The notes under the pieces were generated by a model, which had not been told where the DNA came from, ran no database searches, and saw nothing but the letters and a program-made list of their open reading frames with translations. Below are positions 3,290 to 30,885 of a stretch of DNA of 30,885 nt, piece after piece. Location of the stretch: the IMG/VR virus record IMGVR_UViG_3300012936_005457, positions 1 through 30,885 of that record, one strand, 5' to 3'. Within the stretch, counting starts at the first letter, position 1, and each line of letters opens with the position of its first letter. The translations under genes were made by a program, and so were the position numbers. The DNA is from a virus.

Positions 3290-3820
3290 TTATCTTTTCT
3301 TGGGTTTGATTGTCTTGGATTTAAGTAATGCTCTGGCACCGCTTCTAGTGGACTTGCCGTGTCTTGGCTGTGAACCTTTTGTTTTTTTTATCTGAACACC
3401 TTGTAGCCTTCTCGAACCGGCACCGGACCTTTTAGTCTGGGCCAATTTCTTACCTGCTATGCCGGCCTTGGCCTTTCTCTTCTTTCTGATCTTCGCAGAT
3501 CTTTGCGGGTCAGTCTTCTGGAAACAGGTGCTTGGTTTGGCAACGATACGACCTTTCCTAGGCCCACTGGTACATCTAAATCCTTTGGTAGGTGCTCCGC
3601 CCTTTTGCCTTCTGAAAATTTGGCTTACACCTTCTGTGATTGCGGAATGGTCATCATGCTCTTCTATGCTGTCAACCTCTAGTGCCAATTTATTTCCTGG
3701 CACTATATCTTGTGGCACTATATCTTGTGTCTGGTCTCCTTTGATGGCACTAGATGTAGTATCGCTAGATGTAGTATCTTTTGATTCTTTTGGCGCAATT
3801 ATGAATTCATTGATTTTCAT
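3290..3820 (-). CDS. Basic protein with possible prohead-protease site
   Basis: A 176-residue protein in two parts. Residues 1-63 are acidic and low-complexity, with two tandem five-residue repeats (TTSSD twice, QDIVP twice). Residues 64-176 are extremely Lys/Arg-rich, as in DNA-associated proteins packaged in phage heads. Ile-Thr-Glu followed by Gly (61-64) fits the (I/L)xE cleavage consensus of the T4 prohead protease gp21, so the acidic part could be a removable delivery peptide. A segment with two cysteines (FRCTSGPRKGRIVAKPSTC, 81-99) resembles short basic proteins of marine T4-like phages. The start is set by a late box five bases upstream. The internal-head-protein role is inference. 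Confidence 0.6.
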   Translation of the reverse strand: MKINEFIIAPKESKDTTSSDTTSSAIKGDQTQDIVPQDIVPGNKLALEVDSIEEHDDHSAITEGVSQIFRRQKGGAPTKGFRCTSGPRKGRIVAKPSTCFQKTDPQRSAKIRKKRKAKAGIAGKKLAQTKRSGAGSRRLQGVQIKKTKGSQPRHGKSTRSGARALLKSKTIKPKKR

Positions 3821-3825
3821 ATGAG

Positions 3826-3832
3826 TATTTAT
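3826..3832 (-). promoter_or_regulatory. T4-like late promoter box
   Basis: Minus-strand ATAAATA ends five bases before the ATG at 3820, so a T4-type late transcript would start at or next to the start codon. Confidence 0.6.
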
Positions 3833-3846
3833 TCAGCCATGCTGAC

Positions 3847-3916
3847 AGATCTTATACTAAACTGACAGTGCTAATGCTAAACATCTAATCTTATGCTAAA
3901 CTAATCTTAACTTAAC
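3847..3916. repeat. Degenerate TTATRCTAAAC repeats
   Basis: This intergenic stretch contains related copies: TTATACTAAACT, CTAATGCTAAAC and TTATGCTAAACTAATC. They sit between two divergent late genes. They could be slippage products or a binding-site array; no function can be assigned. Confidence 0.35.
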
Positions 3917-3976
3917 ACCTAACACTTTGTTACCAACTGCTACATTTTAACAAGATCAACTTCATGGATAGATGTG

Positions 3977-3983
3977 TTAAATA
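3977..3983 (+). promoter_or_regulatory. T4-like late promoter box
   Basis: TTAAATA lies eight bases before the ATG at 3992, slightly further than the five-base spacing seen at most starts here. Confidence 0.5.
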
Positions 3984-3991
3984 CATGCACA

Positions 3992-4228
3992 ATGAAGATC
4001 TACGAGATTTACAACACCTCAGAGAACATAGGACCAGCACCAAAGGGTGCGTGTTCCAAACCTATGAGTAGCCTGCCTGCTTCATGGGTCAGTAGTTGTA
4101 AATCACAGGGCAAGATGAAACGTACCGGCAACCGTAGTGAGAAAGTTGGTGGAAAGACCATGAAGGTGAGTGGTAAGCGTATCAAAGGCAAGAAGTACGG
4201 TGGACCTCTGCCAGATTATTCAAAATAA
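3992..4228 (+). CDS. Small basic phage protein
   Basis: A 78-residue protein beginning MKIYEIYN. An upstream in-frame ATG (3974) is possible, but it lies before the TTAAATA box, so 3992 is preferred. Residues 12-45 hold two cysteines in a Ser/Pro-rich section (GACSKPMSSLPASWVSSCKS). The remainder is a Lys/Arg/Gly-rich tail (RSEKVGGKTMKVSGKRIKGKK). The short MKIxE start resembles that of the divergent basic gene at 3820, so both may belong to a class of small basic phage proteins. No family name is recognised; DNA or capsid association is inferred from charge only. Confidence 0.6.
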   Translation: MKIYEIYNTSENIGPAPKGACSKPMSSLPASWVSSCKSQGKMKRTGNRSEKVGGKTMKVSGKRIKGKKYGGPLPDYSK

Positions 4229-4247
4229 TTTCCAAAACCAAAGACCT

Positions 4248-4269: not shown

Positions 4270-4312
4270 ATAACTACTCGTAATTGCTTTCAAAATAGTT
4301 TATAATACTGAA

Positions 4313-5425
4313 ATGGATAAAATAAAATTACACGACCTTAAAAGAATTTCATCTCACATACAGAAAGATTTAGACAAGGCCTACAGAGATGTCATGGACG
4401 AAGGCAACTATCTCCGTGGTGCATCTGTTGGAAAATTAGAACAGGCCTGGACAGAATACACAGGAGCGGAAGACACATGTTCTATGACTAGTTGTTCTGA
4501 TGCTTTACACACTGCCGCAATGATTACCGGAGTTGGTCCAGGTGATGAGGTAGTTTGTTGCTCTCATAGTTACATAGCCACTGTGGAAGGATTCCTACAC
4601 CAAGGTGCAGATGTCAAATGGGTGGACAGCAAGATATCTGATTATTGCATAGACGAAGACAAGATAGAAGCACAGATAACAGATAAAACAAAAGTGTTGG
4701 TATGGACAGACATCAACGGACAGAGTCCCGACATAGATAAAATTGTAGCCATTGCAAAGAAACACAATCTAATGACAGTAAAAGACGCGGCACCGAGTGC
4801 TGGCAGTATGTTTAAAGGAAAACGCATAGGACACAAAGATCACGGCATAGACATAACCTGTTTCAGTTTTGGTCCTGTGAAAAACTTTGGAGCAATAGGG
4901 GGTGCAGGAGCAATCACTGGTTCGAAAGACATATGTGACGAGGCCAGACAGATAAAAAATCATGGCAGAGACAAGAACCATACCAGATATGATCACACCA
5001 TGCCCGGTTGGAACCGAAACATTCATACTCTACAGGCCGCTTTTCTTTTGGCCAAGTTGCCATACCTAGATGAACTCAATGAACGTAGGAGAGATCATGC
5101 AAAAGTTTTCAACACAAGATTATCAAATGTGGTTAACCACGTGCCTCTAGAACAGAAAGATCAGCATCACACTTTCCATTTATATTCTGTGTTGGTTGAT
5201 GATAGACCAAGAATGTCTAAGTGGTTGCAAGAGCAAAACATCGAGGCTTTATCTCACTGGCCAAAAGGTCTACAGGATTACAGCCACACACCTGACAGCG
5301 ATATAGCATTGCCAAACACTGATATCATTACATCACAAACAATGTCTTTGCCTTGCAGTCCTTTCATGACAGAACAAGAGAGAACTTATGTGATAGACAA
5401 GGTACACGAATACTATGCAACTTAA
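4313..5425 (+). CDS. DegT/DnrJ/EryC1/StrS-family aminotransferase
   Basis: A 370-residue PLP-dependent sugar aminotransferase of fold type I. Family landmarks are visible: a GNYLRG segment near 31, a phosphate-binding region TSCSDALHTA (59-68), the cofactor Asp in VKDAAPSAG (D158) and the Schiff-base lysine in CFSFGPVKNFGAIGG (K190). RQIKNHGRD follows near 212. Enzymes of this family move an amino group from Glu or Gln to keto-sugars or ketocyclitols for surface glycans or antibiotics. Length is normal (about 360-400). A TATAATA box ends five bases before the ATG. It heads an operon with the overlapping GT-like and radical SAM genes. The exact sugar substrate cannot be told. Confidence 0.9.
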   Translation: MDKIKLHDLKRISSHIQKDLDKAYRDVMDEGNYLRGASVGKLEQAWTEYTGAEDTCSMTSCSDALHTAAMITGVGPGDEVVCCSHSYIATVEGFLHQGADVKWVDSKISDYCIDEDKIEAQITDKTKVLVWTDINGQSPDIDKIVAIAKKHNLMTVKDAAPSAGSMFKGKRIGHKDHGIDITCFSFGPVKNFGAIGGAGAITGSKDICDEARQIKNHGRDKNHTRYDHTMPGWNRNIHTLQAAFLLAKLPYLDELNERRRDHAKVFNTRLSNVVNHVPLEQKDQHHTFHLYSVLVDDRPRMSKWLQEQNIEALSHWPKGLQDYSHTPDSDIALPNTDIITSQTMSLPCSPFMTEQERTYVIDKVHEYYAT

Positions 5426-10749: not shown

Positions 10750-11693
10750 TGACATCCAAATTCCTCTATAAAACTTTGTTTGCTTATTTTTTTATAAACT
10801 TCTTGATTGTGTAACAAAATGTTTTGAGCATGTTGCAAATTTATATCTACTGTGTTGATCATTTGTTTCATTATTTCTAATCTTTTCAAACCTTCATAGG
10901 CGTCATAACTTTCGTCAATCAACCCATCAAAAGTCTTAAAACCTAATCTACGTAAATTTTTCAAATAATTTTTTGGTCCAAATACAATAAATGGCGTCCC
11001 GGTAAGTATCGGCCTTGCTGTTTTTTCCGTTGGCATGAAGGTCTGGCCCTGCCACCATGTTTCGAAAACCAAATCTATCTTTATCTTGTTGTACTGATCA
11101 CAGATGCCATATGCATCATCAAAATTGATAAAATCATCGCTAGGTCTGTCAATGAGAATAGGAATGTGATTGCTGAACTTTTCCACTTCAGACAAAATTA
11201 GATCATCCTTACCAATTACCTGCTCCAATGCATCGATATTCAGATGTTTGTGATTATACGACATCAAACATTCTTTGTAATGGTTACAATACATGTGACT
11301 CGCAAAATAAAGTCTTGGCCATCTATAACCTCCTATAAACATACCAAATTTATGTGTTGGTTGTTTATTGATTGTGAATTGTGTATTCTGGCCATATAAA
11401 AATGGCTGTTCATTGTAGTAAGGTATGTAATTTTGCCAAACCGTTTTGTCTTGTACAAGATTATCTGATTCTATTTTTATTTTTTCTGGAGGCAAATTTT
11501 GCTTCTGTAACCATTTTATGAAACTTTCTCCTTTGTATTTGATTTGTTCGAGTGGAGGTCCTTCGTCTATCTTGAAATATATTTCTGGTATGATACCGTG
11601 CTTCAATTTCCTAACAGTTTCATTTACAAAATCCTCATTTACTATTAGGTCTTCCCACACCTTTATTCTATGATGATGATAGTCGTATTCCAT
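10746..11693 (-). CDS. GT10/exostosin-like glycosyltransferase, paralogue B
   Basis: A 315-residue relative of the gene just downstream, with which it overlaps by four bases. Shared landmarks are VFETWW, PTEKTARPILTGTPFIVFG, GFKTF and DESYD, in the same order and spacing. The N-terminal part (MEYDYHHHRIKVWEDL) differs, so acceptor specificity probably differs too. The ATG at 11693 is preferred to 11699 because a GTAAATA box then ends exactly five bases upstream. The tandem pair may act on successive positions of one glycan. No membrane segment is seen. The transferase role is a family-level inference. Confidence 0.68.
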   Translation of the reverse strand: MEYDYHHHRIKVWEDLIVNEDFVNETVRKLKHGIIPEIYFKIDEGPPLEQIKYKGESFIKWLQKQNLPPEKIKIESDNLVQDKTVWQNYIPYYNEQPFLYGQNTQFTINKQPTHKFGMFIGGYRWPRLYFASHMYCNHYKECLMSYNHKHLNIDALEQVIGKDDLILSEVEKFSNHIPILIDRPSDDFINFDDAYGICDQYNKIKIDLVFETWWQGQTFMPTEKTARPILTGTPFIVFGPKNYLKNLRRLGFKTFDGLIDESYDAYEGLKRLEIMKQMINTVDINLQHAQNILLHNQEVYKKISKQSFIEEFGCQ

Positions 11694-11698
11694 AATCA

Positions 11699-11705
11699 TA
11701 TTTAC
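11699..11705 (-). promoter_or_regulatory. T4-like late promoter box
   Basis: Minus-strand GTAAATA ends five bases before the ATG at 11693 and diverges from a plus-strand box 15 bases away. Confidence 0.6.
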
Positions 11706-11720: not shown

Positions 11721-11727
11721 TTAAATA
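11721..11727 (+). promoter_or_regulatory. T4-like late promoter box
   Basis: TTAAATA ends five bases before the GTG start at 11733. There is no Shine-Dalgarno sequence in the gap. Confidence 0.6.
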
Positions 11728-11732
11728 CGCAT

Positions 11733-12755
11733 GTGAAAGTTTCAACAAAAAACGAATACGGACAACTGAAATCTATAATCCTTGGTAATCCAATCAACGG
11801 ACATTGGCCAAAGGGAGATACTTTCTTTGATCGGATGCAAGGACTTTCTACCTATAAGGGTAAAATCACAAGAGGCGCCATACCTGACGAAGTGATTCAA
11901 ACAGCAAACGACAATTTGCTGGCCATGAAAGATCTTTTGGAGGACGAGGATGTCAAAGTATTCAGACCGGAAATACAAAATTATGGACAATCAATCACGC
12001 ACTACGGAAACCTGATGACCGGAATGCATACCTATTGTCCAAGGGACATATTGTTGAGTGTTGGCAACATGGTTATCGAATGCCCAACACCTTATCAGTC
12101 AAGGTACAGAGAGTTCGACGCCTATGACGTGATCAAACAGCAGGCAATTAAAGACGGATGCAGATGGATAGCGGCACCCAGGGCACGGATGGAACCAAAA
12201 GAAGCAGTGCATGTCAGCCAGGGCACAGAATCAAAACTGCTTTTAACTGAAAGGTATCCTATATTCGATGCCGCCAATGTGTTAAAGTTTGACGACAAAT
12301 TGGTGTATCTTAAAACCAGCACTGCCAATCAGGCGGGTGCAGATTGGTTGCAGAATGTTGTGGGTACAGAATTTGAAGTTGTTGTATGGGATGATGTTTA
12401 TGCACACGCACACATCGATTCAACGTTGACGTCTTTGAAAAAAGATTTGATCATGATAAATGCTTCTAGGGTACAGAATACGGACAAGTTGCCAAAGTTC
12501 TTACGAAGTTTTAGAAAATTATGGATACATGATATGGCAGAAGGCACATTCCACGATTATCCTTATGCATCCAAATGGATAGGCATGAATATATTAAGTA
12601 TTAACGAAGAAACTGTAATGGTCGATCCTATTCAAAAAGATCTTATCAAAATGCTCACCAGCGAAGGATTCAAAGTCATACCGGTTTCGTTGGAACACGC
12701 AAGAACACTGGGCGGTGGACACCATTGTGTCACTTGCGATTTGGAGAGACAATAA
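11733..12755 (+). CDS. Glycine/inosamine amidinotransferase-like enzyme
   Basis: A 340-residue enzyme closely matching the arginine:glycine amidinotransferase pattern, which also covers StrB1 of streptomycin synthesis. Visible active-site blocks are PIFDAANV (D179), AHAHIDSTL (H227) and LGGGHHCVTCDLER with nucleophile C332. ASKWIGMNILSINEETVMVD (280-298) is another family block. It should move an amidino group from arginine to an amine, giving a guanidino product plus ornithine. The start is GTG; an ATG two bases earlier is out of frame. A late box ends five bases upstream. The stop overlaps the start of the dehydrogenase gene by one base, linking guanidino chemistry with nucleotide-sugar metabolism. 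The acceptor is unknown. Confidence 0.88.
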   Translation: MKVSTKNEYGQLKSIILGNPINGHWPKGDTFFDRMQGLSTYKGKITRGAIPDEVIQTANDNLLAMKDLLEDEDVKVFRPEIQNYGQSITHYGNLMTGMHTYCPRDILLSVGNMVIECPTPYQSRYREFDAYDVIKQQAIKDGCRWIAAPRARMEPKEAVHVSQGTESKLLLTERYPIFDAANVLKFDDKLVYLKTSTANQAGADWLQNVVGTEFEVVVWDDVYAHAHIDSTLTSLKKDLIMINASRVQNTDKLPKFLRSFRKLWIHDMAEGTFHDYPYASKWIGMNILSINEETVMVDPIQKDLIKMLTSEGFKVIPVSLEHARTLGGGHHCVTCDLERQ

Positions 12756-13924
12756 TGTTTTTCAATAACAATCAAATTATATACGGAGAGAAGATAGGTT
12801 TCATAGGTCTTGGCAAACTAGGCATGCCTTGTGCAGAAGCCATAAGGAAAAAAGGTTTCCACGTGGCAGGTTATGACATTGAAAGAAAAAGAAGCGATTT
12901 GATAGAAATAAGAGATTCCATTGAAGATCTTGTAAGAGATAGAGACATTGTTTTTGTTGCAACACCCACACCACACGAAGAAGGATACGACGGCAGAGAA
13001 CCTACCAGCGACAAGGAAGTCAAAGACTTCAACTATGATTCAGTGAAAAAAGTTTTGACAAAATGCAATAAGCACATGGGAGTTACACAAAGTCTTGTTT
13101 TGATATCTACTGTACTGCCAGGCACGATCAGGAGAGAACTAGCACCATTGGTAACCAATGTGAAGTTGTTGTACAATCCATATCTAATCGCCATGGGCAC
13201 GGTGGCCGACGACATGATCAATCCTGAGATGATAATGATAGGCACAAAAAAAGGTGTGTACGAAACTGCCCTCAAGGCACAACAATTAGAAAGTTTTTAC
13301 AATGTTGTCTGTGACAACTATCCTAGGATAGAATTTGGTACTTGGGAAGAAATAGAGTCCATGAAAATATTCTACAACACATTCATCAGCAACAAGATTG
13401 CTCTTGTTAACATGATACAGGACGTTGCTCACAAATTGGGCAACATGGATGTAGACAAAGTAACACAGGCATTGGGCAAATGCACCAAGCGAATAGTCAG
13501 CACAGCATACATGAAACCAGGAATGGGCGACGGCGGAGCCTGCCATCCCAGAGACAACATCGCCCTGCGTTGGTTGGCCAAAGACCTTGGATTGGGATAT
13601 GATTTGTTCGAGGGCATAATGACCGCACGTGAGCGACAGGCAGAACACATGGCCAAAGCAATACTGCAACACGGAGAAAATGTACATTTTACCTCAGACA
13701 CTTACAAACCCGGAACTGACCTAGTGGACGGTTCCTATAGCCTTTTGGTCCAACACTATGTGAAGAAACACGGAGGGCAACTTGCAAACGGATTTGACAC
13801 TCCTGTACAGGTGATTGTAAGGGTACACGAGTCAGATGAAATAACAGCAGATAATAGCACCATTATATTTGACCCATGGAGAACATATCCCAAAGCGGAT
13901 AATGTGGTATATTATGGTAAATAA
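12755..13924 (+). CDS. UDP-glucose/GDP-mannose 6-dehydrogenase family enzyme
   Basis: A 389-residue nucleotide-sugar dehydrogenase that oxidises a sugar C6 alcohol to a uronic acid with two NAD+. The N-terminal Rossmann motif is IGFIGLGKLGMP (14-25), with D41 ending the second strand. STVLPGT (119-124) is the usual segment after the fourth strand. The central helix ESMKIFYNTF has conserved K204. The catalytic cysteine lies in GMGDGGACHPRDN (C263). The family is about 390-450 residues, so the C-terminal nucleotide domain is on the short side. The TAATG overlap with the amidinotransferase fixes the start at 12755. A late box for the next gene overlaps its stop. UDP-glucose is the likeliest substrate but is not proven. 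Confidence 0.87.
   Translation: MFFNNNQIIYGEKIGFIGLGKLGMPCAEAIRKKGFHVAGYDIERKRSDLIEIRDSIEDLVRDRDIVFVATPTPHEEGYDGREPTSDKEVKDFNYDSVKKVLTKCNKHMGVTQSLVLISTVLPGTIRRELAPLVTNVKLLYNPYLIAMGTVADDMINPEMIMIGTKKGVYETALKAQQLESFYNVVCDNYPRIEFGTWEEIESMKIFYNTFISNKIALVNMIQDVAHKLGNMDVDKVTQALGKCTKRIVSTAYMKPGMGDGGACHPRDNIALRWLAKDLGLGYDLFEGIMTARERQAEHMAKAILQHGENVHFTSDTYKPGTDLVDGSYSLLVQHYVKKHGGQLANGFDTPVQVIVRVHESDEITADNSTIIFDPWRTYPKADNVVYYGK
13917..13923 (+). promoter_or_regulatory. T4-like late promoter box overlapping a stop codon
   Basis: GTAAATA overlaps the stop codon of the dehydrogenase gene. It would give a leader of about 24 bases with AGGAG before the ATG at 13953, so this late gene is of the leadered type. 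Confidence 0.55.
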
Positions 13925-13952
13925 AAGCATATTGCAATAGGAGATAAAACAA

Positions 13953-14549
13953 ATGGCTGACGCTTACAAACATCAAAGACATTTTCAAGTTCTTGACGGC
14001 GATGAAAATAAAATTACTTTCTCATCAACAGATGATGCAAATACTAAAATAGGTTTCAAGAGTGTATGGGACACAGGTAGTCCTACTAAATCATACCAAT
14101 TGCAAGACAGCAACCAGACATTGGTTGTTACATATGAATTCGCATCAGAGTCAGACCAAACAAGTTTCAAAACTGCTGTTGACAACATGTGGAGTACAGA
14201 ACTTCCATGGAAGTGGGAGGATAGAGATTTCATAGACCACGGCATGGACCTTAAAATCAAGGATGGCAAGACAGGTGCCGGAACTGCACTTAATATTTCG
14301 ACTGCAGGCGGAAGTGAAAGTTACACAACAGTGGACGGAAGCACAGTAGTAACTGGAAGATCAGCAAGGATACAGGCGGCCAGAGAACAGGCAACTGGGG
14401 TCAAGGGATCCACAAGACAAGATGCCGCAGAAGCATATTGGAAATTAGAACCAATACACATCAAGACAGTATGGTTTAAAGGAGATGGCACAACAGTCGA
14501 CTCCGAAGCAGATATTGACTCACCAAGATTGAATTTCAAAACAGAATAA
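13953..14549 (+). CDS. Soluble, probably virion-associated protein
   Basis: A 198-residue soluble protein rich in Thr, Ser, Gly and Asp, with many short beta-type stretches (HFQVLDGDENKITF, TLVVTYEFA, PIHIKTVWFKGDGT). This composition is typical of phage structural proteins. AGGAG lies 8 bases before the ATG and a late box lies about 30 bases upstream, so high late expression is likely. Its stop is directly adjacent to the stop of the convergent radical SAM gene. I considered tail tube, baseplate and decoration proteins but recognise no defining motif. The virion role is inferred from composition and expression signals. Confidence 0.6.
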   Translation: MADAYKHQRHFQVLDGDENKITFSSTDDANTKIGFKSVWDTGSPTKSYQLQDSNQTLVVTYEFASESDQTSFKTAVDNMWSTELPWKWEDRDFIDHGMDLKIKDGKTGAGTALNISTAGGSESYTTVDGSTVVTGRSARIQAAREQATGVKGSTRQDAAEAYWKLEPIHIKTVWFKGDGTTVDSEADIDSPRLNFKTE

Positions 14550-15506
14550 TTAATCTAAACTGAGGTGTCCCACAGCCTCGCAGTTAGATCCACAAACTAA
14601 ATCTACATTATCGGTGTTCCAGGTCTTTTGTAACTTTGGAAAGTCATCCAGAGGCACACTCTTCCTGTCGGGTAAATCAAATCCCTGGAAACAACATGGA
14701 TGGACACCGCCTTTGGCACTGATGTATGCACTGCCTGAAAGATGCATACAGTTCACTTTGCAACTGTACCTGTGAGGATTCAAGTTGATAGGATTACGAA
14801 TCATTTCTATATAAGCATCTACATCAAAGTCATTATCGGGTTGAGCACTACCGTCCGCTGGTAGTATCCAATGGCTAATTTTTTTGTCTTTGGTCAGAGC
14901 AGGAAAATGATTCCTGCCATGGTCGTCTACTTCAAAGTTCCTAAAACCCATTTGTTTTGACAGCGATCTTGCGTCATCAACTTGATGTGAATTATGTTTG
15001 AATAAAATAAATTTCCATACAGCATCTCCGCCTGCATCTATGAAGGCCTTTGCCCTTTCCATGACCTTGATCCATTGGACATCTTGCCTATACAAGTGAT
15101 TTGTATCTTTCAATCCGTCTATGCTAAAATACATGCTTACTTTTCTCTGTGCCAATTTTTCATAATCTTTTAATCTTCCTATTGATCCGTTTGTGTTTAT
15201 TGTACACTGGGCCTTGGTAAGTTCTGTGAGATCTACAATATGTGGATTCATCATCGGATCTCCTAGGTTACCATTGAAAAGTATTGTAACAACATTTGGA
15301 AACTGATATAATATTTCTTTAAATCTTTCTACTGAAAGATTGTTCTGAGTGAATAATTCAGGAATATTGTAGCCTGATGCATTACGCGGACATCCAGGAC
15401 ATCTGGCATTACAAAATGACGAAGGCTCTATGTGGAGATCTCTAATATGTAAATGTTGGTTTGGATCTGGATTTTCAATCCTGCTGATTAAATCTGCATC
15501 GCTCAT
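14550..15506 (-). CDS. Radical SAM/SPASM protein
   Basis: A 318-residue radical SAM enzyme. The iron-sulfur triad is SFCNARCPGCPRN (C32, C36, C39). The usual GGEP is replaced by NGNLGDP near residue 85, as in several SPASM proteins. The C-terminal part carries more cysteines (YSCKVNCMHL, HPCCFQGF, LVCGSNCEA), consistent with an auxiliary-cluster SPASM domain. Such enzymes typically modify peptide side chains or small metabolites. It differs from the radical SAM protein at 6334, whose extra cysteines are N-terminal. The start follows a TTAAATA box by five bases, so a leaderless late mRNA is likely. No precursor peptide gene is evident next to it. Confidence 0.85.
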   Translation of the reverse strand: MSDADLISRIENPDPNQHLHIRDLHIEPSSFCNARCPGCPRNASGYNIPELFTQNNLSVERFKEILYQFPNVVTILFNGNLGDPMMNPHIVDLTELTKAQCTINTNGSIGRLKDYEKLAQRKVSMYFSIDGLKDTNHLYRQDVQWIKVMERAKAFIDAGGDAVWKFILFKHNSHQVDDARSLSKQMGFRNFEVDDHGRNHFPALTKDKKISHWILPADGSAQPDNDFDVDAYIEMIRNPINLNPHRYSCKVNCMHLSGSAYISAKGGVHPCCFQGFDLPDRKSVPLDDFPKLQKTWNTDNVDLVCGSNCEAVGHLSLD

Positions 15507-15511
15507 GCATC

Positions 15512-15518
15512 TATTTAA
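15512..15518 (-). promoter_or_regulatory. T4-like late promoter box
   Basis: Minus-strand TTAAATA ends five bases before the ATG at 15506. It lies immediately after the terminator of the upstream early gene, so the two units are insulated. Confidence 0.6.
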
Positions 15519-15522
15519 TCAC

Positions 15523-15554
15523 AAAAAAAAGGGCGATAGTCGCCTACCGCCCTT
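15523..15554 (-). terminator. Rho-independent terminator
   Basis: On the minus strand AAGGGCG pairs with CGCCCTT and is followed by a run of eight T. It ends the transcript of the small basic gene at 15570-15938. Its stem is shared with the terminator at 21961. Confidence 0.85.
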
Positions 15555-17076: not shown

Positions 17077-17081
17077 AATAT

Positions 17082-17088
17082 TATTTAA
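17082..17088 (-). promoter_or_regulatory. T4-like late promoter box
   Basis: Minus-strand TTAAATA ends five bases before the ATG at 17076 and should drive the DUF1178-like gene and the coupled oxygenase gene. Confidence 0.6.
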
Positions 17089-20033: not shown

Positions 20034-20040
20034 TTAAGTA
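20034..20040 (+). promoter_or_regulatory. Variant late promoter box
   Basis: TTAAGTA begins right after the TctA-like stop and ends five bases before the ATG at 20046. It differs from TTAAATA by one base, so confidence is lower. Confidence 0.45.
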
Positions 20041-20045
20041 TTTGG

Positions 20046-20618
20046 ATGATTGATCAAAAAGCACAAGACCACTTTTATAGAAATGTTTGGCAATCAAATA
20101 TACATCTTTTCAAACACTCTGGTGAGAATCTTGTCAAAGAAATTAACAAACACAAACCAAAATTTGTGATAGACGCCGGGTGTGCCTTAAACTTTTTTAA
20201 AGGTAAAATACCAAATCTTGTTGGATATGACCCTGTGTTCAAAGAGGCTGACATTATTTGTGGACATTTTGATGCTCCGTTCAAAACTGAATGTGCTGAT
20301 GTGATACTGGCGCTGGGTTCTATCAACTGGGGTGATCATGATGACATCGCACAAATGTTAATAAAAGTTAAGTCATGGTTGAAGCCGGGTGGTAGACTCT
20401 ATATGCGAGGTGCACCAGGCGGATACAAAAGTGATAGAGGACTTCAATGGTTCCAGTGGGGACTAAAACAAGTGCATGAATTTGCTAGACTAATGGACTT
20501 TGATGTTGAGTGGTGTGAACTAGAATACAATACGACAGGTCCCGATGGCGGCACTCTACCAGAAAGATTGTGGCCTCACAGATACGTTTGGCTTTATCGT
20601 AGGAAACTAATCAAGTAA
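20046..20618 (+). CDS. SAM-dependent methyltransferase-like protein, paralogue 1
   Basis: A 190-residue class I methyltransferase-type protein. Motif I reads VIDAGCALNFF (D43), lacking the normal GxGxG. It is followed by YDPVFKEAD near 60, ADVILALGSINWGD near 83 and LKPGGRLYMRGAPGG near 112, which match motifs II to V. The gene at 23459 has the same order and spacing (DPAFEQAD, YLCLGSLNFG), so the two are paralogues. The weak motif I could mean altered cofactor binding. The 3' end overlaps the convergent amidotransferase gene by 12 bases. The methyl acceptor is unknown. Confidence 0.72.
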   Translation: MIDQKAQDHFYRNVWQSNIHLFKHSGENLVKEINKHKPKFVIDAGCALNFFKGKIPNLVGYDPVFKEADIICGHFDAPFKTECADVILALGSINWGDHDDIAQMLIKVKSWLKPGGRLYMRGAPGGYKSDRGLQWFQWGLKQVHEFARLMDFDVEWCELEYNTTGPDGGTLPERLWPHRYVWLYRRKLIK

Positions 20619-21146
20619 TTTTTTAACATCCTCAGGCAACACAGGCACCTCCATTCTCTCTGGATGCCATACAATTCCATAGATGGGTAATTTGTTGTGC
20701 TTGAATGCTTCTATGTTCCCTTGCTTATCGTGTGCAATGGCAACAAAATCTTTGGCCAGTGTTTCGATCGACTGAGAATGAAAACATCTAACCACATGTT
20801 CTTGGCCTTCCATTGTGATTGTGACATCAGCATCAACGTGGCCGTCCACCCTGCCGTGTGTGCCACCATTGAGATCATTAATGACAAATGCTCCATGGCA
20901 AATGCCAATTATAGGTTTTTTGTTTTCGAATGCGTGTTTGTAAAGTAGATCCTCTGTTTGGTGCCTTGCTATGCTGTCGGGTCCTCCTGTAAGCAAAAGG
21001 CAGTCATATTCATTATCAGGTACTTTAATGATATTTGGGCAAGGAATTATGTCGTGCTTAGATAGGAATTTGTAGTAGTTTCGTTCCAGAGCATCAAACG
21101 GTCTAGTGAACTTGATATGCTCTTCCTGACTCAACAATAATTTCAT
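20607..21146 (-). CDS. Class I glutamine amidotransferase-like protein
   Basis: A 179-residue stand-alone GATase1-fold protein. LLLTGGPDS (50-58) supplies the oxyanion region, GICHGAF holds nucleophile C83, and WHPERM carries H161 and E163, giving a full Cys-His-Glu triad. The family releases ammonia from glutamine for a partner synthetase or hydrolyses gamma-glutamyl compounds (peptidase C26). No synthetase partner is fused or adjacent, so either activity is possible. Ammonia supply for amino-sugar or nucleotide modification is an inference from the neighbourhood. A TTAAATA box ends five bases before the ATG. Confidence 0.8.
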   Translation of the reverse strand: MKLLLSQEEHIKFTRPFDALERNYYKFLSKHDIIPCPNIIKVPDNEYDCLLLTGGPDSIARHQTEDLLYKHAFENKKPIIGICHGAFVINDLNGGTHGRVDGHVDADVTITMEGQEHVVRCFHSQSIETLAKDFVAIAHDKQGNIEAFKHNKLPIYGIVWHPERMEVPVLPEDVKKLLD

Positions 21147-21151
21147 GCTTT

Positions 21152-21158
21152 TATTTAA
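21152..21158 (-). promoter_or_regulatory. T4-like late promoter box
   Basis: Minus-strand TTAAATA ends five bases before the ATG at 21146. Confidence 0.6.
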
Positions 21159-21176: not shown

Positions 21177-21183
21177 ATAAATA
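21177..21183 (+). promoter_or_regulatory. T4-like late promoter box with leader
   Basis: ATAAATA lies about 60 bases before the ATG at 21244. It would give a leader of roughly 55 bases that ends with TAAGGAG, so this is the leadered, high-expression late class. Confidence 0.6.
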
Positions 21184-21243
21184 TTGTTAGTTTAAGGTTA
21201 TCCTAGGAGACAATACCTTGAATGAACTTATAAGGAGTAAAAA

Positions 21244-21939
21244 ATGTTAACAGGAAAAGAGTTCGTAGCAAAACTTGAAGCAGACAACGAGGCTTTGTAC
21301 AGAGCATCAGAGTTACAGATCAAGCACTACTACGATGTAAACAAAGACACCTCCGAGTTAATCGATAACTTCACTGGTCGTATGGTAAACGAAAGAATGA
21401 ACATGGAAGAAATTTCAAGAGAGATCGCGGCTATGCCGGAAGGCACTAGTCCAGAGAAACTTGTTCTACTTTCTAAACAAGCACACGACGAAGCAAAACA
21501 CTTTCAATTTGTGAAAGAAGTTGTGGAATACTTGAAAGGTGAAAAGATAGACATGCAAGAAGCAGTAAACAGCCACAAAGATAGACAACACCAAAAAGGT
21601 GCGGCTCTTATCAAGAAGTACAACTGCAACAGCAATCCATTAATGTTGGCTTTATACCAATTGGTTGCTGAAGGCAGAGCGGCTAGAAACTGGGCAATGA
21701 TGGCTAACTGTATCGAAGATGAATTTATTTCTTCTAGATACGCAAAAATTGCCAAGGATGAGACTTTCCATGCTACAATTGGTAGAATGGAACTTGAGCA
21801 ACTTTGTGAGACACAAGACGCACAAGATGAAATCAACAGTGTCATCAACGATTTTAGAAAAGACTTATTCAAAGTGACTTGTGCTAAGACAGGCGTTTTA
21901 GCAGAAAGCAAGAAACTTATGGACGAGGCTTACGCATAA
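21244..21939 (+). CDS. Ferritin-like diiron protein
   Basis: A 231-residue all-helical protein with two ExxH motifs, HDEAKHF (E83, H86) and KDETFHA (E173, H176). Acidic residues on the neighbouring helices (E55/E56 and E143) complete a four-helix-bundle diiron site pattern. Members include rubrerythrins, MiaE-type hydroxylases and other oxygen-using diiron enzymes; which one cannot be decided here. It is monocistronic, with a late box, a strong TAAGGAG ribosome site and a terminator, which suggests high late expression. Iron storage, oxidative protection or an iron-bearing virion component are all possible. Family-level confidence is good; function is open. Confidence 0.75.
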   Translation: MLTGKEFVAKLEADNEALYRASELQIKHYYDVNKDTSELIDNFTGRMVNERMNMEEISREIAAMPEGTSPEKLVLLSKQAHDEAKHFQFVKEVVEYLKGEKIDMQEAVNSHKDRQHQKGAALIKKYNCNSNPLMLALYQLVAEGRAARNWAMMANCIEDEFISSRYAKIAKDETFHATIGRMELEQLCETQDAQDEINSVINDFRKDLFKVTCAKTGVLAESKKLMDEAYA

Positions 21940-21960: not shown

Positions 21961-21991
21961 AAGGGCGGTATTTTTTTATCGCCCTTTTTTT
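21961..21991 (+). terminator. Rho-independent terminator
   Basis: AAGGGCGGTA pairs with TATCGCCCTT, with one G-U pair, around a short T-rich loop and runs into a T tract. It ends the ferritin-like transcript. Confidence 0.88.
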
Positions 21992-21996
21992 ACGAC

Positions 21997-22003
21997 TTAA
22001 ATA
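21997..22003 (+). promoter_or_regulatory. T4-like late promoter box
   Basis: TTAAATA ends five bases before the ATG at 22009, just after the preceding terminator. Confidence 0.62.
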
Positions 22004-22008
22004 TAATT

Positions 22009-22872
22009 ATGGAACACAGCAAAGATTATTCAAAACACATATTGAAAAAGATAGACGAGGATCTACAAGATTCAGATCAAGCAATTAAAAATTTAAAGGC
22101 ACACACAGAAGTCAACGCAGTCAAGACTGGTAAGAAATTAGAATACGGAAAAAGCCGTTGGGACTACGAGAAAAAAAGGGCACTAGAAAGAGGTGCATAT
22201 CATTTCGACTGGAGCAGGAAAGACAACATAGAAGATGTTCTTATGTTCCATGGAAACGTAGACATGGACTGCGATTACTTTATCAAAACATACGGTGACG
22301 CCGCACTTGATAATGCAGTGCATTGGGCAACACGAAACAAAAGTGTTGGCGGAAACTACGCAATAGATCAAGAGGTGTACGACATAGTTAGATCAGGAGG
22401 AGATCCTGAGGGAAAGATATATGGCAGGGCAAACATGTTCACTGATCCAAAAGCGATTGCACTCGCAGAAGGATTATTTGGATTATTTGATTATGAACTT
22501 AAACTGCACTCACAGGTTTGCGGACAATTACTACATATGCACATGGACAATTTTGCCGCAAGACTAGATAGACAAAATAGTTTTGACGAGTTAGACTATG
22601 ACGTGGAGCCAAAAAAAGTACACAGGTTTGTGGTCTTCCTAAATGATTGGAGCATGGGACAGATATGGCATCAAGGCACGGCAACACATACACATTGGAA
22701 AGCAGGAGATATCATAAGTTGGCACTGGCAGGATTTTCCGCATGGCACGGCAAACATGGGTTGGGACACAAGATATATTTTACAATACACAGGCAGGACC
22801 ACAGATAAGACATGGGATTTTATTAATAACACAAACAAAGATTCAAAGCACAAACTAGATATACACCATTAA
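22009..22872 (+). CDS. 2OG-Fe(II) oxygenase-like protein with N-terminal extension
   Basis: A 287-residue protein. The C-terminal half is an oxygenase-type jelly roll: H178-x-D180 in LLHMHMDNF, a strand HRFVVFLNDW, a distal His in DFPHGTANM (H245) and R255 in DTRYILQYTG. Residues 1-160 form a separate part with a charged, helical start and no recognisable motif, which could bind the substrate. It opens a three-gene late operon and its stop overlaps the next start by one base. The triad is clearer here than in the other two oxygenase-like proteins. The substrate is unknown. Confidence 0.75.
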   Translation: MEHSKDYSKHILKKIDEDLQDSDQAIKNLKAHTEVNAVKTGKKLEYGKSRWDYEKKRALERGAYHFDWSRKDNIEDVLMFHGNVDMDCDYFIKTYGDAALDNAVHWATRNKSVGGNYAIDQEVYDIVRSGGDPEGKIYGRANMFTDPKAIALAEGLFGLFDYELKLHSQVCGQLLHMHMDNFAARLDRQNSFDELDYDVEPKKVHRFVVFLNDWSMGQIWHQGTATHTHWKAGDIISWHWQDFPHGTANMGWDTRYILQYTGRTTDKTWDFINNTNKDSKHKLDIHH

Positions 22873-24033: not shown

Positions 24034-24040
24034 GTAAATA
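24034..24040 (+). promoter_or_regulatory. T4-like late promoter box
   Basis: GTAAATA ends six bases before the ATG at 24047. Confidence 0.55.
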
Positions 24041-24046
24041 CCGTAT

Positions 24047-24346
24047 ATGCAAAAATCAACAAGAAGTATATTAGAAGAATTAGGTAACATATCTTTCCGT
24101 AAGGACAAGGAAGAAGTGGTCGAAAGTAGAGCATCGCACATATTGGAGTCGGCTATAAGGTTGCTTACATACATCAGAGAAAACTTTGATCAAGAAACTG
24201 CATATAAATTAGAAAAGAAATTTCATTCGTCGTTAAAAAATATGGATGCCAGCAAGTTCTCTAAAGGCGTGGCAAGGATCAAAGAAAATAAAGAAGTCAA
24301 AACAAACATTCTTAAAACTGTAGACGGCGAATACAAAGAGGATTAA
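24047..24346 (+). CDS. Conserved helical phage protein
   Basis: A 99-residue, charged, all-helical protein beginning MQKSTRSILEELGNI, then ESRASHILESAIRLLTYIREN. I recall similar proteins (SxLEEL, then ESRxxHxxxxAINLL) beside virion genes in T4-like cyanophages, but no function is assigned to them. It is followed two bases later by the 404-residue gene with the KWDG motif, so the two form an operon. No metal site or membrane segment is seen. Confidence 0.68.
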   Translation: MQKSTRSILEELGNISFRKDKEEVVESRASHILESAIRLLTYIRENFDQETAYKLEKKFHSSLKNMDASKFSKGVARIKENKEVKTNILKTVDGEYKED

Positions 24347-25563: not shown

Positions 25564-26562
25564 TTCTAAGGTTTTGTTTATCTCGGCAGAGAGTTTTTCT
25601 TTGTTAAAAAATAGTTCTGTGTTGTGTTTCCTGATACCTTTGCTCAACATGTACATATCTTCCCAATAACAGTTTTTCAATTCTAAACAAAGTTTTGTAA
25701 TTTTCTCAACACGTGTTAAGGAATTATCTGTAAGGTCGTAACTCTCATCAAAATAATTGTTGAATGTTTTGAACCCTATCTCCCTTAATTTTTGTAGGTA
25801 TAAAGGATTACCATGCACGACAAACATGTGCCCTGCAATAATAGGCTTCCATATCTTTTCGGTCATGAAGATGTCATTGCTGTTATCGTTTGTTTCCGAT
25901 ACGATGCTGAACTTGGTATCGTTGTAAGGCTTTTCAAATATATCTTGATCTAATCCTCTATAAGGATATTTTGTTACTCCAGGCAACTCATATTCCAAAG
26001 GTAACGATGTGCCATCATGGCCATGAAAAGAAGTCAGACTGTTTGACAATACATTATGGCTTTGCAACATGTCGTACAATTTGATCCTATGTGTCCTTGG
26101 AGTCTTGTTTAGATATAGAAAATCATATTTTTTATTTGTATGATCAAATGTATACTTTCTTCCCAGATGTTTCCTGTACATGTAGAACCAAAACCAACTT
26201 ATACCTCCAACCCATTTGACGTGGGGTATGTCTATAATTGGATAATGCTCATTTGCTTCCATGTTAGGTAGGCTTTCCCATGGATTTGCTTTAATAAAAT
26301 GAAACCCTTGGCTGTGCAATAGGTCGCACCTTTTCTTTAATTCGTCGTTGAATTGGTCGCTATGTAATCTTTTGTTGACTGTTCTCGTGTCAATCACTGC
26401 TAGACGCCTGTCATATGAATCTAGGTCGTATGAGTGTAAGGTATAATATTCACCTGTGCATTCAAATGTTTGTTTTTCGATCGTGTGTAGGTCAATAAAT
26501 GCCTCGAGGTCCGTGTGATAACCTGTCTTCATTACATCGGTTAATATAAAATTGCGTTGCAT
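25534..26562 (-). CDS. GT10/exostosin-like glycosyltransferase, paralogue C
   Basis: A 342-residue member of the same family as the tandem pair at 9655-11693. It shares IVSETN, FMTEKIWKPIIAGHMFVVHG, GFKTF and DESYD. Here the TEKIWKP block is closest to the classical GT10 TEK-W pattern. The middle contains KYDFLYLNKTPRTHR (144-158), a segment seen in phage fucosyltransferase-like proteins. It is inserted on the opposite strand among virion-neighbourhood genes and starts 18 bases from the divergent gene at 26581. The donor sugar and acceptor are unknown. Confidence 0.72.
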   Translation of the reverse strand: MQRNFILTDVMKTGYHTDLEAFIDLHTIEKQTFECTGEYYTLHSYDLDSYDRRLAVIDTRTVNKRLHSDQFNDELKKRCDLLHSQGFHFIKANPWESLPNMEANEHYPIIDIPHVKWVGGISWFWFYMYRKHLGRKYTFDHTNKKYDFLYLNKTPRTHRIKLYDMLQSHNVLSNSLTSFHGHDGTSLPLEYELPGVTKYPYRGLDQDIFEKPYNDTKFSIVSETNDNSNDIFMTEKIWKPIIAGHMFVVHGNPLYLQKLREIGFKTFNNYFDESYDLTDNSLTRVEKITKLCLELKNCYWEDMYMLSKGIRKHNTELFFNKEKLSAEINKTLELFLEFVDGS

Positions 26563-26567
26563 AAGCC

Positions 26568-26575
26568 TATAAATA
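26568..26575. promoter_or_regulatory. T4 late promoter octamer between divergent genes
   Basis: TATAAATA, the exact T4 late octamer, lies five bases from the ATG at 26581 (+) and five bases from the ATG at 26562 (-). It is near-palindromic (six of eight positions), so it might serve both strands. Confidence 0.7.
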
Positions 26576-26580
26576 CGAGT

Positions 26581-27426
26581 ATGATAACTCCATTTTTAAA
26601 GTATGTATCTGAAGGAAGAGTGGTAAGGCGTCAAAGCGACCTGCAAAGGTACACATGGGCAGAGATCACAGAAAGAATTTACCTCAGTTTCTTGGCATTG
26701 ACCTTGCTCAACAACTTCAAACAGACCCAAGGATTTGTAAAACAGTATGTAAGTGCCACACTAGGATATGGCACTTTTGATAAAGTACGAATGGGGCAGA
26801 ACGATCTTTACAACATGTTGGCTGTGGTATCAGGTGATCCAGAGATTACAAAAAAACTGGCCAATAGCAAACAGGCAGAAGCGATGCGGCAACGATCTAC
26901 AATTCCTGTTTTGGCTCTAAGAAGATATCTGAGAGATTTCAAAAACAGTTATTCTGTGCTTTCCAAATTAGAAGCATCACTTGGCATAGGAAACACTGCA
27001 TACAAAAATTTAAGGATAGCAATATCAGATTACACAAATTTATCAAGAGCAAATAAAAAAGTTACTACAACTAGATTGTTGCAGGCCCTGAAAGCAAATC
27101 TATCAGGCACAGACATACAACGTAAGACACAGGAGTTTGCGGACAAACAAAAACTCGAATTAGACGATGTAGTAGATGCAGAGAGATCGATATCACCATC
27201 TGATATGACAGGAGATGAACTTAACGCATACAGGTTGTTGGTTGGTCCCAACAATGTTAGACGTGCAAAGGTTGTGGCAGATATGGTAAAACAAGGCAAA
27301 GGTGTGCCTGGGCCATACATGAGTGCCTATGCGCCTGTTGTCAAAATGATAGACGACATAGCCAAAGGTGGTTACGCCTATGTGAAACTTCTGCAGAACA
27401 TCCATGACAGAGCAAGGAAAAAATAG
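26581..27426 (+). CDS. Helical phage protein, probably virion-associated
   Basis: A 281-residue, mostly helical, basic protein beginning MITPFLKYVSEGRVVRR. An upstream TTG in frame (26557) lies ahead of the promoter octamer and is rejected. Long amphipathic stretches (YLSFLALTLLNNF near 34; KLEASLGIGNTAYKNL near 137) and a charged centre (DKQKLELDDVVDAERS) show no catalytic motif. Position among virion-neighbourhood genes and the late promoter suggest a structural or assembly role. A one-base gap separates it from the cysteine-rich miniprotein. The family is not recognised. Confidence 0.65.
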   Translation: MITPFLKYVSEGRVVRRQSDLQRYTWAEITERIYLSFLALTLLNNFKQTQGFVKQYVSATLGYGTFDKVRMGQNDLYNMLAVVSGDPEITKKLANSKQAEAMRQRSTIPVLALRRYLRDFKNSYSVLSKLEASLGIGNTAYKNLRIAISDYTNLSRANKKVTTTRLLQALKANLSGTDIQRKTQEFADKQKLELDDVVDAERSISPSDMTGDELNAYRLLVGPNNVRRAKVVADMVKQGKGVPGPYMSAYAPVVKMIDDIAKGGYAYVKLLQNIHDRARKK

Positions 27427-27572: not shown

Positions 27573-27580
27573 TATAAATA
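27573..27580 (+). promoter_or_regulatory. T4 late promoter octamer with leader
   Basis: TATAAATA matches the T4 late octamer exactly. The predicted transcript start, about six bases on, lies at the base of the stem-loop at 27582-27619. Confidence 0.8.
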
Positions 27581-27581
27581 C

Positions 27582-27619
27582 TTACAACTTGATTCCGGAG
27601 CGGAATCAAAGTGTTGTAA
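27582..27619 (+). promoter_or_regulatory. 5'-terminal stem-loop in mRNA leader
   Basis: TTACAAC TTGATTCC pairs with GGAATCAA and GTTGTAA across a GGAGC loop, with a three-base AGT bulge, giving 15 base pairs. It would sit near the 5' end of the late transcript and ends about 12 bases before AGGAGG. A role in mRNA stability or translation control is likely. Confidence 0.7.
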
Positions 27620-27643
27620 ATCAGAAAATAGGAGGATATTACA

Positions 27644-28042
27644 ATGCCAATAGCAAAAAACAACTTCTCTAGAAACGAAAACTACGAAGTAGGTTCAGTT
27701 GATATGACTTTCTTCACAGTTGACTTCATCAACTCAATGGCTTCTGAGACTGCTGACTTTTCAGCGTCTAATGCCGTTGCTGGTTTAGAGATGACTAGAG
27801 CAACAATCGAAAACAACGGTGTGCCAGTATTAATGGAAGGTCCATTAGCAGACTCAAACACACAAAAAACTTACGGTACAAGAACAGACTGTTTAGATTC
27901 TTTATCGTCTACTACAACAATCGCGGCTTTACAAACAGCCATCAGAGCGTTGAACGGTAACGGTAGAGTTACAGCAACAATCAGTTCAGCAACAGTAACA
28001 GAAACTAAACTTGGTATCTTAACTGCGGCGGCTATAAGTTAA
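27644..28042 (+). CDS. Probable abundant virion protein
   Basis: A 132-residue Thr/Ala/Ser-rich protein. It has the strongest expression signals in the window: exact T4 late octamer, 5' stem-loop, AGGAGG 7 bases before the ATG, and a terminator. Helical (FSASNAVAGLEMTRATIEN) and beta-type (GRVTATISSATVTETKLG) segments are seen, but no catalytic motif. Codons favour a narrow set, as expected for high expression. A small capsid decoration or tail protein would fit. The family is not recognised and the role is inferred from expression signals. Confidence 0.65.
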   Translation: MPIAKNNFSRNENYEVGSVDMTFFTVDFINSMASETADFSASNAVAGLEMTRATIENNGVPVLMEGPLADSNTQKTYGTRTDCLDSLSSTTTIAALQTAIRALNGNGRVTATISSATVTETKLGILTAAAIS

Positions 28043-29216: not shown

Positions 29217-29265
29217 TATTTGATTAAGGCACATAAAAAACAACTTATTAAGGCTTACAAAGGCA

Positions 29266-29580
29266 ATGTTTCAGGCACAATTCCAGGCTATAGGAGCGGA
29301 GATCAGAGAGATCAAACAGGAGTTGAGAGAATATATAAGACTTATGAGTACAACAGAATTAGAAAAACAAAACCTAGAAGCACACGTGGACCTGTGTTCG
29401 GAGAGATACAAAGGCCTACACGACAGATTAAGTGCTATTGAACTTCGTCTAGGTAAAATGAATGAAGAGATGACAGCAGGTCATAAAAGTCAAACTAAAA
29501 CAATCATAGCGACAGCGGGCACAGTGGTCGCGGGACTGCTATCCACAGTGGTAGTGATCCTGATGAAGATGCCCGGTTAA
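29266..29580 (+). CDS. XhlA-like coiled-coil membrane protein
   Basis: A 104-residue protein. Residues about 27-65 (STTELEKQNLEAHVDLC, then RYKGLHDRLSAIELRLG) form a coiled coil. Residues 79-100 (TIIATAGTVVAGLLSTVVVILM) are one membrane segment near the C-terminus. This layout matches small XhlA/holin-associated proteins. A second possible start is the ATG at 29344, which gives a 78-residue protein beginning MSTTELEKQ; I recall relatives starting there. A role in lysis or membrane attachment is plausible but not shown. Confidence 0.62.
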   Translation: MFQAQFQAIGAEIREIKQELREYIRLMSTTELEKQNLEAHVDLCSERYKGLHDRLSAIELRLGKMNEEMTAGHKSQTKTIIATAGTVVAGLLSTVVVILMKMPG

Positions 29581-29604
29581 TAGTAAAAATTTACCAAAAA
29601 ATAT

Positions 29605-29841
29605 ATGTTCATACAAATAGCACCTAAGGTAAGGGTTTATGTATCCGACCATCAAATGATGTTTGTCAAAAAATATGCACACAAGGCTTATTTCACTGAC
29701 AAGGATCTTGATGCTGACGAGGTGCATGTGGCTAAGATCCTTGCGGACAAATCCGTCTATGTCAGGAAAAAACTTGACAACGGTGTGCAGTATGCTTTAA
29801 ATAGACGTATAAGATTTTTAGGTAATGCCGTTAAGAAGTAA
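29605..29841 (+). CDS. Small basic phage protein
   Basis: A 78-residue basic protein with beta-type segments (KVRVYVSDHQMMFV, VYVRKKLDNGVQYAL) and no recognised family. Its stop overlaps the start of the next gene by 17 bases, which supports it as a coupled cistron. No clear promoter or ribosome site precedes it, so it is probably read from the upstream operon. Confidence 0.6.
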   Translation: MFIQIAPKVRVYVSDHQMMFVKKYAHKAYFTDKDLDADEVHVAKILADKSVYVRKKLDNGVQYALNRRIRFLGNAVKK

Positions 29842-30328
29842 ATCAGAACTGGTTAAACAGATTGAGGCCTATGGCCTACGCAATAAACTTGCGGATCTGG
29901 CACGGAAAGAAAAAGAAAGACGTCCATTTAGGCATTTACCAAAACAATTTTCCAAAGGTATCCTCATAGGTAATATAGCAATCGTACCCAAGAAGCACAC
30001 AGGCACTAGATATGTGTATGTGGTTGCCGACATGTTGGAAGCAAAAATACTACATGAAGATATAAATTTAAAACAATCCGCGATACTTGTCGCACATTAT
30101 CTAGCGGATGGCAAAACAGTGCCAAAAAATATTATAGAATATGATACACATTTCGCATCAAAGGTCTTTGAAATACAGGCCGCAAAAAGTAGGGTCAAAC
30201 AAGCAAAAAAAGAACGAAACGAAGTCATGGAAGAGATTTATCTACAACGTCTGGATGATGCGAATTACTATGCAGACCAATATAAAGGCTATATCCAGGA
30301 CATCTTCCATTCGACCTTTGGAGTATAA
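29825..30328 (+). CDS. Basic phage protein of unknown function
   Basis: A 167-residue, Lys-rich protein. A central beta-type region (GILIGNIAIVPKKHTGTRYVYVVADM, about 45-70) is followed by two charged helices (EIQAAKSRVKQAKKERNEVM; IYLQRLDDANYYADQYKGY). I recall marine T4-like phage proteins with a similar helical C-terminus, but no function. It overlaps its upstream partner and precedes the truncated structural gene. DNA or virion association is a guess from charge. Confidence 0.62.
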   Translation: MPLRSKSELVKQIEAYGLRNKLADLARKEKERRPFRHLPKQFSKGILIGNIAIVPKKHTGTRYVYVVADMLEAKILHEDINLKQSAILVAHYLADGKTVPKNIIEYDTHFASKVFEIQAAKSRVKQAKKERNEVMEEIYLQRLDDANYYADQYKGYIQDIFHSTFGV

Positions 30329-30332
30329 GTAC

Positions 30333-30338
30333 TAAATA
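30333..30338 (+). promoter_or_regulatory. T4-like late promoter box
   Basis: TAAATA ends five bases before the ATG at 30344. Confidence 0.55.
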
Positions 30339-30343
30339 ACGTT

Positions 30344-30885
30344 ATGCAAAGCACAGAACTAACAAAACCTATCACAACAGAAAGTTTACTTTCTGAATTT
30401 GAGTCTAGATTTAACCAAACAATGGACTTGAGCAGATATACAAAAGAAGAATTGGAAGATACTGCTAACCATATTAGAACAAAAATTCACAACATCACCC
30501 AAAACACACATTTTGGTGAAGAACTTCAAAATAACGATTATCAAAAAAATCAGATGATGCTTGATATCGTAAACCAAAAACTTAAAGAAATTGCACCGGC
30601 GATTGCCGCATTAGGTGGAACAGCCGCTAGAGCGGCAGGTACCGCCTTTGGAACCACAGCGGCAACCAAACTTGTTGATCCAATTAAAAGAAAATTAGAA
30701 AAAGGCATGAATTTAGATCCAGATGAAAAGACCGTGGCGGCAAAACTTATGCAGGACAAAAATAACGTCAAAGAAGGTGTAGAGGAACAATCAGAATTAA
30801 TATTAGCGGCCAAGGACATGATGGACAAAGTAACAGGTTACTTGGAAGATCTAGCATCAATGAAGACAGAAGGTATGTTAGAACT
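30344..30885 (+). CDS. Virion structural protein, C-terminus cut by window edge
   Basis: At least 180 residues are visible; the 3' end lies beyond the window. The first 80 residues are charged and helical (LLSEFESRFNQTMDLSRYT). A Gly/Ala-rich segment (IAALGGTAARAAGTAFGTTAA, about 85-105) follows. The end (LILAAKDMMDKVTGYLEDLASM) matches a block I recall from large virion proteins of T4-like cyanophages, where relatives read AAKDMVDxVTGWMEDTA. This is the best virion-structure marker in the window. The role in those phages is not precisely known. Confidence 0.7.
   Translation, partial: MQSTELTKPITTESLLSEFESRFNQTMDLSRYTKEELEDTANHIRTKIHNITQNTHFGEELQNNDYQKNQMMLDIVNQKLKEIAPAIAALGGTAARAAGTAFGTTAATKLVDPIKRKLEKGMNLDPDEKTVAAKLMQDKNNVKEGVEEQSELILAAKDMMDKVTGYLEDLASMKTEGMLE

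Follow-up and report, generated by a model that had tools for sequence, protein, structure and literature searches.

A late-promoter-type box five bases before start codons points to leaderless late mRNAs in pelagimyophage-like viruses

Late promoters of the T4 type and leaderless translation are each already known, while their combination appears to be new: no report of it was found, and no paper in the openly readable literature was found to describe leaderless late mRNAs for T4-like phages. To our knowledge, the described phage cases of leaderless mRNAs are single genes. SAR11 myophages are among the most abundant viruses of the ocean. A survey of pelagimyophages reported that late promoter prediction failed (PMC7029224), for which the geometry described below may be a reason. 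The T4 late octamer extends from −13 to −6 (PMC2988020), which leaves five bases between the box and +1.

The stretch analysed here, referred to as the window, is a 30,885-nt fragment of an uncultured virus (IMG/VR record IMGVR_UViG_3300012936_005457, which consists of this whole 30.9-kb stretch). Megablast of the window against isolate phages gave no match. The window protein at 24349-25563 matches PHROG 455 and among isolate phages is closest to that of Pelagibacter phage HTVC008M (42%), followed by cyanophages (41%) and Methylophilales phage Melnitz (39%); close relatives of the window, with 88-96% identity in this protein, are common in IMG/VR. In these relatives nrdA is mostly 72-73% identical to that of HTVC008M, and in one of them the curli genes are 64-73% identical, which places the lineage, as pelagimyophage-like, within Kyanoviridae. 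Judged by its sequence, the window is a fragment of a T4-like marine myophage related to HTVC008M. The late transcription genes gp55, gp33, and gp45 are present in HTVC008M and in the 146-kb relative G015; a search of the window-lineage contigs, which are incomplete, did not find them. The window also carries a phage-borne uptake gene for TctA, the large membrane subunit of a tripartite tricarboxylate transporter (18597-20033, plus strand, Pfam E 9e-88; 17536-18594 lies upstream), of which isolate phages have no close copy. SAR11 copies of TctA are only ~27-32% identical, and the gene gives no assignment of SAR11 as host of the lineage. Another gene (16636-17076, minus strand) encodes a DUF1178 protein, usually cellular and conserved among the window relatives.

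The earlier note had placed a TAAATA-type box five bases before about a dozen starts of the window on both strands (Table 1). Nine of the 12 have an exact TAAATA, eight of them before ATG and one before GTG, and the remaining three weaker boxes were not upheld. The TATAATA before 4313+ may be an ordinary −10. As for 20046+, its closest orthologues have no box, base −1 is G, and the gene is separated by 12 nt from the stop codon that precedes it in its operon. The box claimed for 26562-, TATTTATA, is the reverse strand of the one at 26581+, whose ATG is only 18 bp away in the divergent direction, and spacing 6 is seen in the orthologues shown. That note had not listed two starts that also have a conserved box at short spacing, namely 24047+, a probable near-leaderless start by its position, and 3992+, whose mRNA would probably have a 3-nt leader. 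At 24000-24047 and in the orthologues, an extended −10-like element (TGTTACAAT/TGCTACAAT) is seen ~20 nt before the ATG, just 5' of the late box, and tandem early and late promoters are possible at this locus. The comparison with shuffled sequence that had been proposed gives nine matches to TAAATANNNNNRTG in the window versus 1.16 on average and at most 4 in 100 dinucleotide shuffles. Counted without a gene caller, 8 of the 20 TAAATA in the window stand exactly five bases upstream of the initial ATG of an ORF of at least 50 aa (background 0.11 per distance, P 4e-13).

Table 1. Boxes with their start codons, and intrinsic terminators, in the window
Feature	Positions	Strand	Remarks
TAAATA (3831-3826), 5-nt spacer, ATG 3820	3818..3831	-	176-aa gene of no assigned function; spacing 5 in 9/9 distinct orthologues
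TAAATA, spacing 8, ATG 3992	3978..3994	+	spacing 8 in 10/10 orthologues; Y/R at offsets 4/5 after box
Claimed weak box TATAATA, ATG 4313	4301..4315	+	unsupported: −1 is A, no orthologues found
TAAATA, 5-nt spacer, ATG 11693	11691..11704	-	divergent from 11733+; no close orthologues with aligned start
TAAATA, 5-nt spacer, GTG 11733	11722..11735	+	orthologues: ATG at same spacing in 4/8 hits, all the closer ones
Leadered: TAAATA 29 nt before ATG 13953, AGGAG	13918..13955	+	box 24-26 nt upstream in 4 orthologues
TAAATA, 5-nt spacer, ATG 15506, radical SAM protein	15504..15517	-	exact box
Intrinsic terminator, hairpin −18.2 kcal/mol	15521..15552	-	U-run end 14 nt before ATG 15506
TAAATA, 5-nt spacer, ATG 17076, DUF1178 protein	17074..17087	-	spacing 5 in 23/23 distinct orthologues
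Claimed weak box TTAAGTA, ATG 20046	20034..20048	+	unsupported
TAAATA, 5-nt spacer, ATG 21146, glutamine amidotransferase-like	21144..21157	-	spacing 8-9 in three relatives
Leadered: TAAATA 60 nt before ATG 21244, AAGGAG	21178..21246	+	box 27-30 nt upstream in 3/4 orthologues
Intrinsic terminator, hairpin −15.5 kcal/mol	21963..21992	+	U-run end 16 nt before ATG 22009
TAAATA, 5-nt spacer, ATG 22009, 287-aa gene	21998..22011	+	spacing 5 in 3/3 orthologues
TAAATA, spacing 6, ATG 24047, virion structural protein family phrog_11854	24035..24049	+	spacing 6 in 40/48 orthologues
Claimed weak box TATTTATA, ATG 26562	26560..26575	-	reverse strand of conserved 26581 box
TATAAATA, 5-nt spacer, ATG 26581	26568..26583	+	spacing 5 in 53/53 distinct orthologues, variable spacer
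Leadered: TAAATA 63 nt before ATG 27644, AGGAGG	27575..27646	+	AGGAG-type site in orthologues shown
TAAATA, 5-nt spacer, ATG 30344	30333..30346	+	spacing 5 to 8 in relatives

The genome-wide distribution of spacings, by which the earlier note had proposed to judge its reading, has a peak at five in HTVC008M and in other pelagimyophages. According to the depositors' own gene starts, HTVC008M has 12 starts with TAAATA at spacing 5 versus at most 3 at every other distance. Without a gene caller, the spacing-5 counts are 8 for the window, 12 for HTVC008M, 10 for G015, and 4-9 for each window relative. After removal of near-duplicates, spacing 5 is represented by 60 cases in the window relatives, versus 2.5 per other distance, and the loci surrounding the HTVC008M-type capsid gene yield 63 versus 5.4. 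When every hexamer was scanned de novo at every position, TAAATA at spacing 5, the core of the TATAAATA-type box of T4-type late promoters, ranks first in both groups (P 1e-29 and 2e-27) and outranks Shine-Dalgarno as a position-specific hexamer before starts. The spacing-5 set comprises 287 distinct proteins in 57 families, and its start codons in the window relatives (60 ATG, 6 GTG, and 1 TTG) indicate a strong AUG preference. TAAATA is preceded by A in 50% of cases, and the octamer shows a weak first T. In the genome G012 the spacing-5 signal is weak overall, yet gp3 and gp2 are found at this spacing. The idea that the TAA of the box is merely the stop codon of the upstream gene was rejected, since it holds in only 6 of 69 dereplicated sites. 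Starts at spacings 6 and 8 also occur, and some starts would therefore have leaders of 1-3 nt. A 400-kb SAR11 sample gave no leaderless signal of its own. Within this sample, the idea that the SAR11 host shares the geometry found no support, which counts against the leaderless reading. A second positional hexamer in the window relatives is TAATTA at spacing 5, with 15 starts (G011:30836+, G010:48858+, G003:43247-, and others), which may be a box variant or part of TATAATTA.

It had been claimed that T4-type geometry puts +1 on or next to the start codon, and this is supported, at the level of sequence, by the bases at −1 and +1, the missing Shine-Dalgarno, terminators, divergent starts, and orthologue conservation. 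RNA polymerase favours a pyrimidine at −1 and a purine at +1. Base −1 is a pyrimidine in 156 of 162 spacing-5 starts, versus 78 of 157 control starts and 35 of 58 starts that have neither box nor Shine-Dalgarno (P 1.5e-10 for the latter comparison). Of the 12 offsets after leadered boxes in the same phages, offset 5 has the highest share of purine (80%). The pyrimidine-purine step does not shift relative to the box at spacing-8 starts, and a 3-nt leader would give this pattern. The absence of Shine-Dalgarno sites at spacing-5 starts, also proposed earlier, is confirmed by the frequency of Shine-Dalgarno-like tetramers, 19/162 (12%) versus 135/242 (56%) at leadered starts. Box and distance are invariant in the distinct orthologues of 26581, 17076, and 3820 (Table 1), and the spacers are variable except for T at −1 and, in 17076, also A at −3.

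We consider it very likely from these features that spacing-5 late mRNAs begin at the AUG and are leaderless, being made from a gp55-type late promoter, and that a second class has a leader with the same box. In this reading, host RNA polymerase with the phage sigma factor gp55 would recognise TAAATA as the core of a late promoter of the T4 type, and the position of the box would set +1 six bases after its last A. The start codon, being placed at +1, would make AUG the 5' end of the mRNA, whose leaderless translation would most likely proceed by direct binding of 70S ribosomes. The second class would combine the box with a leader of 10-30 nt and Shine-Dalgarno.

The existence of two late gene classes, as suggested in the earlier note, is borne out by starts with a box 14-34 nt upstream and Shine-Dalgarno, and the leader and ribosome site described for 13953, 21244, and 27644 were found as well, with the boxes at 29, 60, and 63 nt, respectively. 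Virion genes with boxes in pelagimyophages, as for T4-type late promoters, are gp2, gp3, gp4, gp8, gp13, gp20, gp21, and gp25. For gp3, each of the six genomes here that carry the gene has the box at spacing 5. The same spacing applies in HTVC008M, and in most cases in its relatives, to gp2, gp4, gp25, a gp53-like gene, the tape measure, CsgF, and a cyclase-like gene. For gp8, gp20 (portal), and gp21, boxes are located 15-30 nt upstream, nearly always with Shine-Dalgarno; gp18 (sheath), gp19 (tube), and gp23 (capsid) have Shine-Dalgarno, and a box is mostly absent within 50 nt. In T4 virions, the gp2, gp3, gp4, and gp25 set are low-copy parts, and the leadered set includes the most abundant ones. 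Gene identity thus suggests that low-copy virion parts use the leaderless mode and abundant ones leaders, and that the leaderless mode may set a low yield. As for gp13 (neck), close relatives show spacing 5, spacing 8, or 18-19 with Shine-Dalgarno (G015 and G018 versus G013, G017, and G012); the mode of expression therefore seems to switch in evolution, and leaderless and leadered expression of one protein become directly comparable.

Several other explanations have to be weighed. The boxes might be real promoters while translation takes place mainly from longer read-through mRNAs, coupled to the upstream gene, with leaderless initiation being unimportant. Late phage transcription frequently reads through terminators, and several spacing-5 genes of HTVC008M start 8-24 nt behind the previous gene on the same strand and could also be read from the upstream mRNA. 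We nevertheless regard this explanation as unlikely: intrinsic terminators are located within 60 nt upstream of 60 of 169 spacing-5 starts versus 13 of 250 leadered ones (P 1.6e-15), and the U-run mostly ends 12-17 nt before the AUG, which leaves little space for a leader. Moreover, 23 of the 169 starts have a divergent start within 80 bp (the closest at 18-40 bp), where no coupling is expected, and the spacing is conserved to a single base.

AT-rich stretches upstream of starts can aid ribosome binding in genes without Shine-Dalgarno, and TAAATA could accordingly act in translation, as an AT-rich standby or S1-type site, and not as a promoter. This is very improbable given that the same box occurs 14-34 nt before Shine-Dalgarno starts with a purine peak at offset 5, that pyrimidine at −1 with purine at +1 is a signature of transcription starts, that boxes lie directly 3' of terminators, and that in the window and its relatives no other permutation of the hexamer peaks at 5 to a comparable degree. 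The least probable explanation is that the AUG after the box is a false start and the true one is a later codon with its own Shine-Dalgarno. Such an arrangement fits one family with sigma-70-like promoters (MNKGVE...), where both a Shine-Dalgarno-like stretch and a second ATG lie downstream of the first, whereas an in-frame start with Shine-Dalgarno in codons 2-15 is found at only 5 of 169 spacing-5 starts. In the orthologues of 26581 and 17076, codon-position variation begins directly after the AUG, where third positions are most variable, and the Pfam DUF1178 match to the 17076- protein begins at residue 1.

Short spacings are also found at sigma-70-like promoters, which in the window relatives end 5-7 nt before ATG in 33 cases versus 2.5 per other distance (G011:30836+, G003:27180-, G005:21042+, G007:3236-, and others), and in HTVC008M-type phages peak at 6 nt (7 versus 1.6). 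This peak is absent in cyanophages, T4, and RB49. Leaderless early genes at these promoters are likely too, and the predicted leaderless geometry would then extend beyond late promoters. Two families did not hold as leaderless starts: MNKGVE... looks false, with Shine-Dalgarno just after the first ATG, and in MTMxDIQTLT AAGG adjoins the −10; both are better read as short Shine-Dalgarno leaders. A broader reading, in which leaderless initiation is a general pelagimyophage mode used gene by gene at sigma-70-type early and gp55 late promoters, with low yield for low-copy parts and perhaps aided by ribosomal protein bS21, is put forward tentatively, as it seems rather doubtful. According to the pelagimyophage survey, bS21 is encoded by all pelagimyophages and is their chief difference from cyanomyophages with respect to translation (PMC7029224); that it acts in leaderless initiation is speculative. 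A window-lineage contig encodes a weak bS21 homologue, as HTVC008M does (G020:27217-27336, minus strand, 37% over 40 aa).

If leaderless late mRNAs are confirmed, a whole class of leaderless phage genes would be wired through a phage sigma factor and lost or gained between sister lineages. The spacing-5 rule is usable for annotating starts and operons, and HTVC008M with Pelagibacter HTCC1062 provides a cultured pair for the question.

In comparison with T4 late promoters (gp55/gp33/gp45), pelagimyophages share the TAAATA core of TATAAATA and a box end five bases before a predicted purine +1, and HTVC008M and G015 encode gp55, gp33, and gp45. The first two octamer bases are, however, weak in pelagimyophages, and the T4 box is located ~20-30 nt before the start codon (peak at 26-29), with a leader and Shine-Dalgarno, whereas here the predicted +1 is the AUG. 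Cyanophage late promoters (S-PM2 NATAAATA; Syn9) share the phage family and the core box, but in Syn9, S-PM2, and P-HM2 the distance peaks at ~19-26 nt. The spacing-5 peak is absent in these three and in T4, and RB49 and Melnitz have no clear peak at 5, Melnitz having 3 spacing-5 starts only, including gp2 and the cyclase-like gene. With leaderless mRNAs (lambda cI; Mycobacterium, Deinococcus, and Caulobacter), the spacing-5 genes share an AUG at or near the predicted 5' end, a strong AUG preference, and the lack of Shine-Dalgarno; in contrast to these, they are predicted to form a recurrent class of dozens of families under a phage late promoter.
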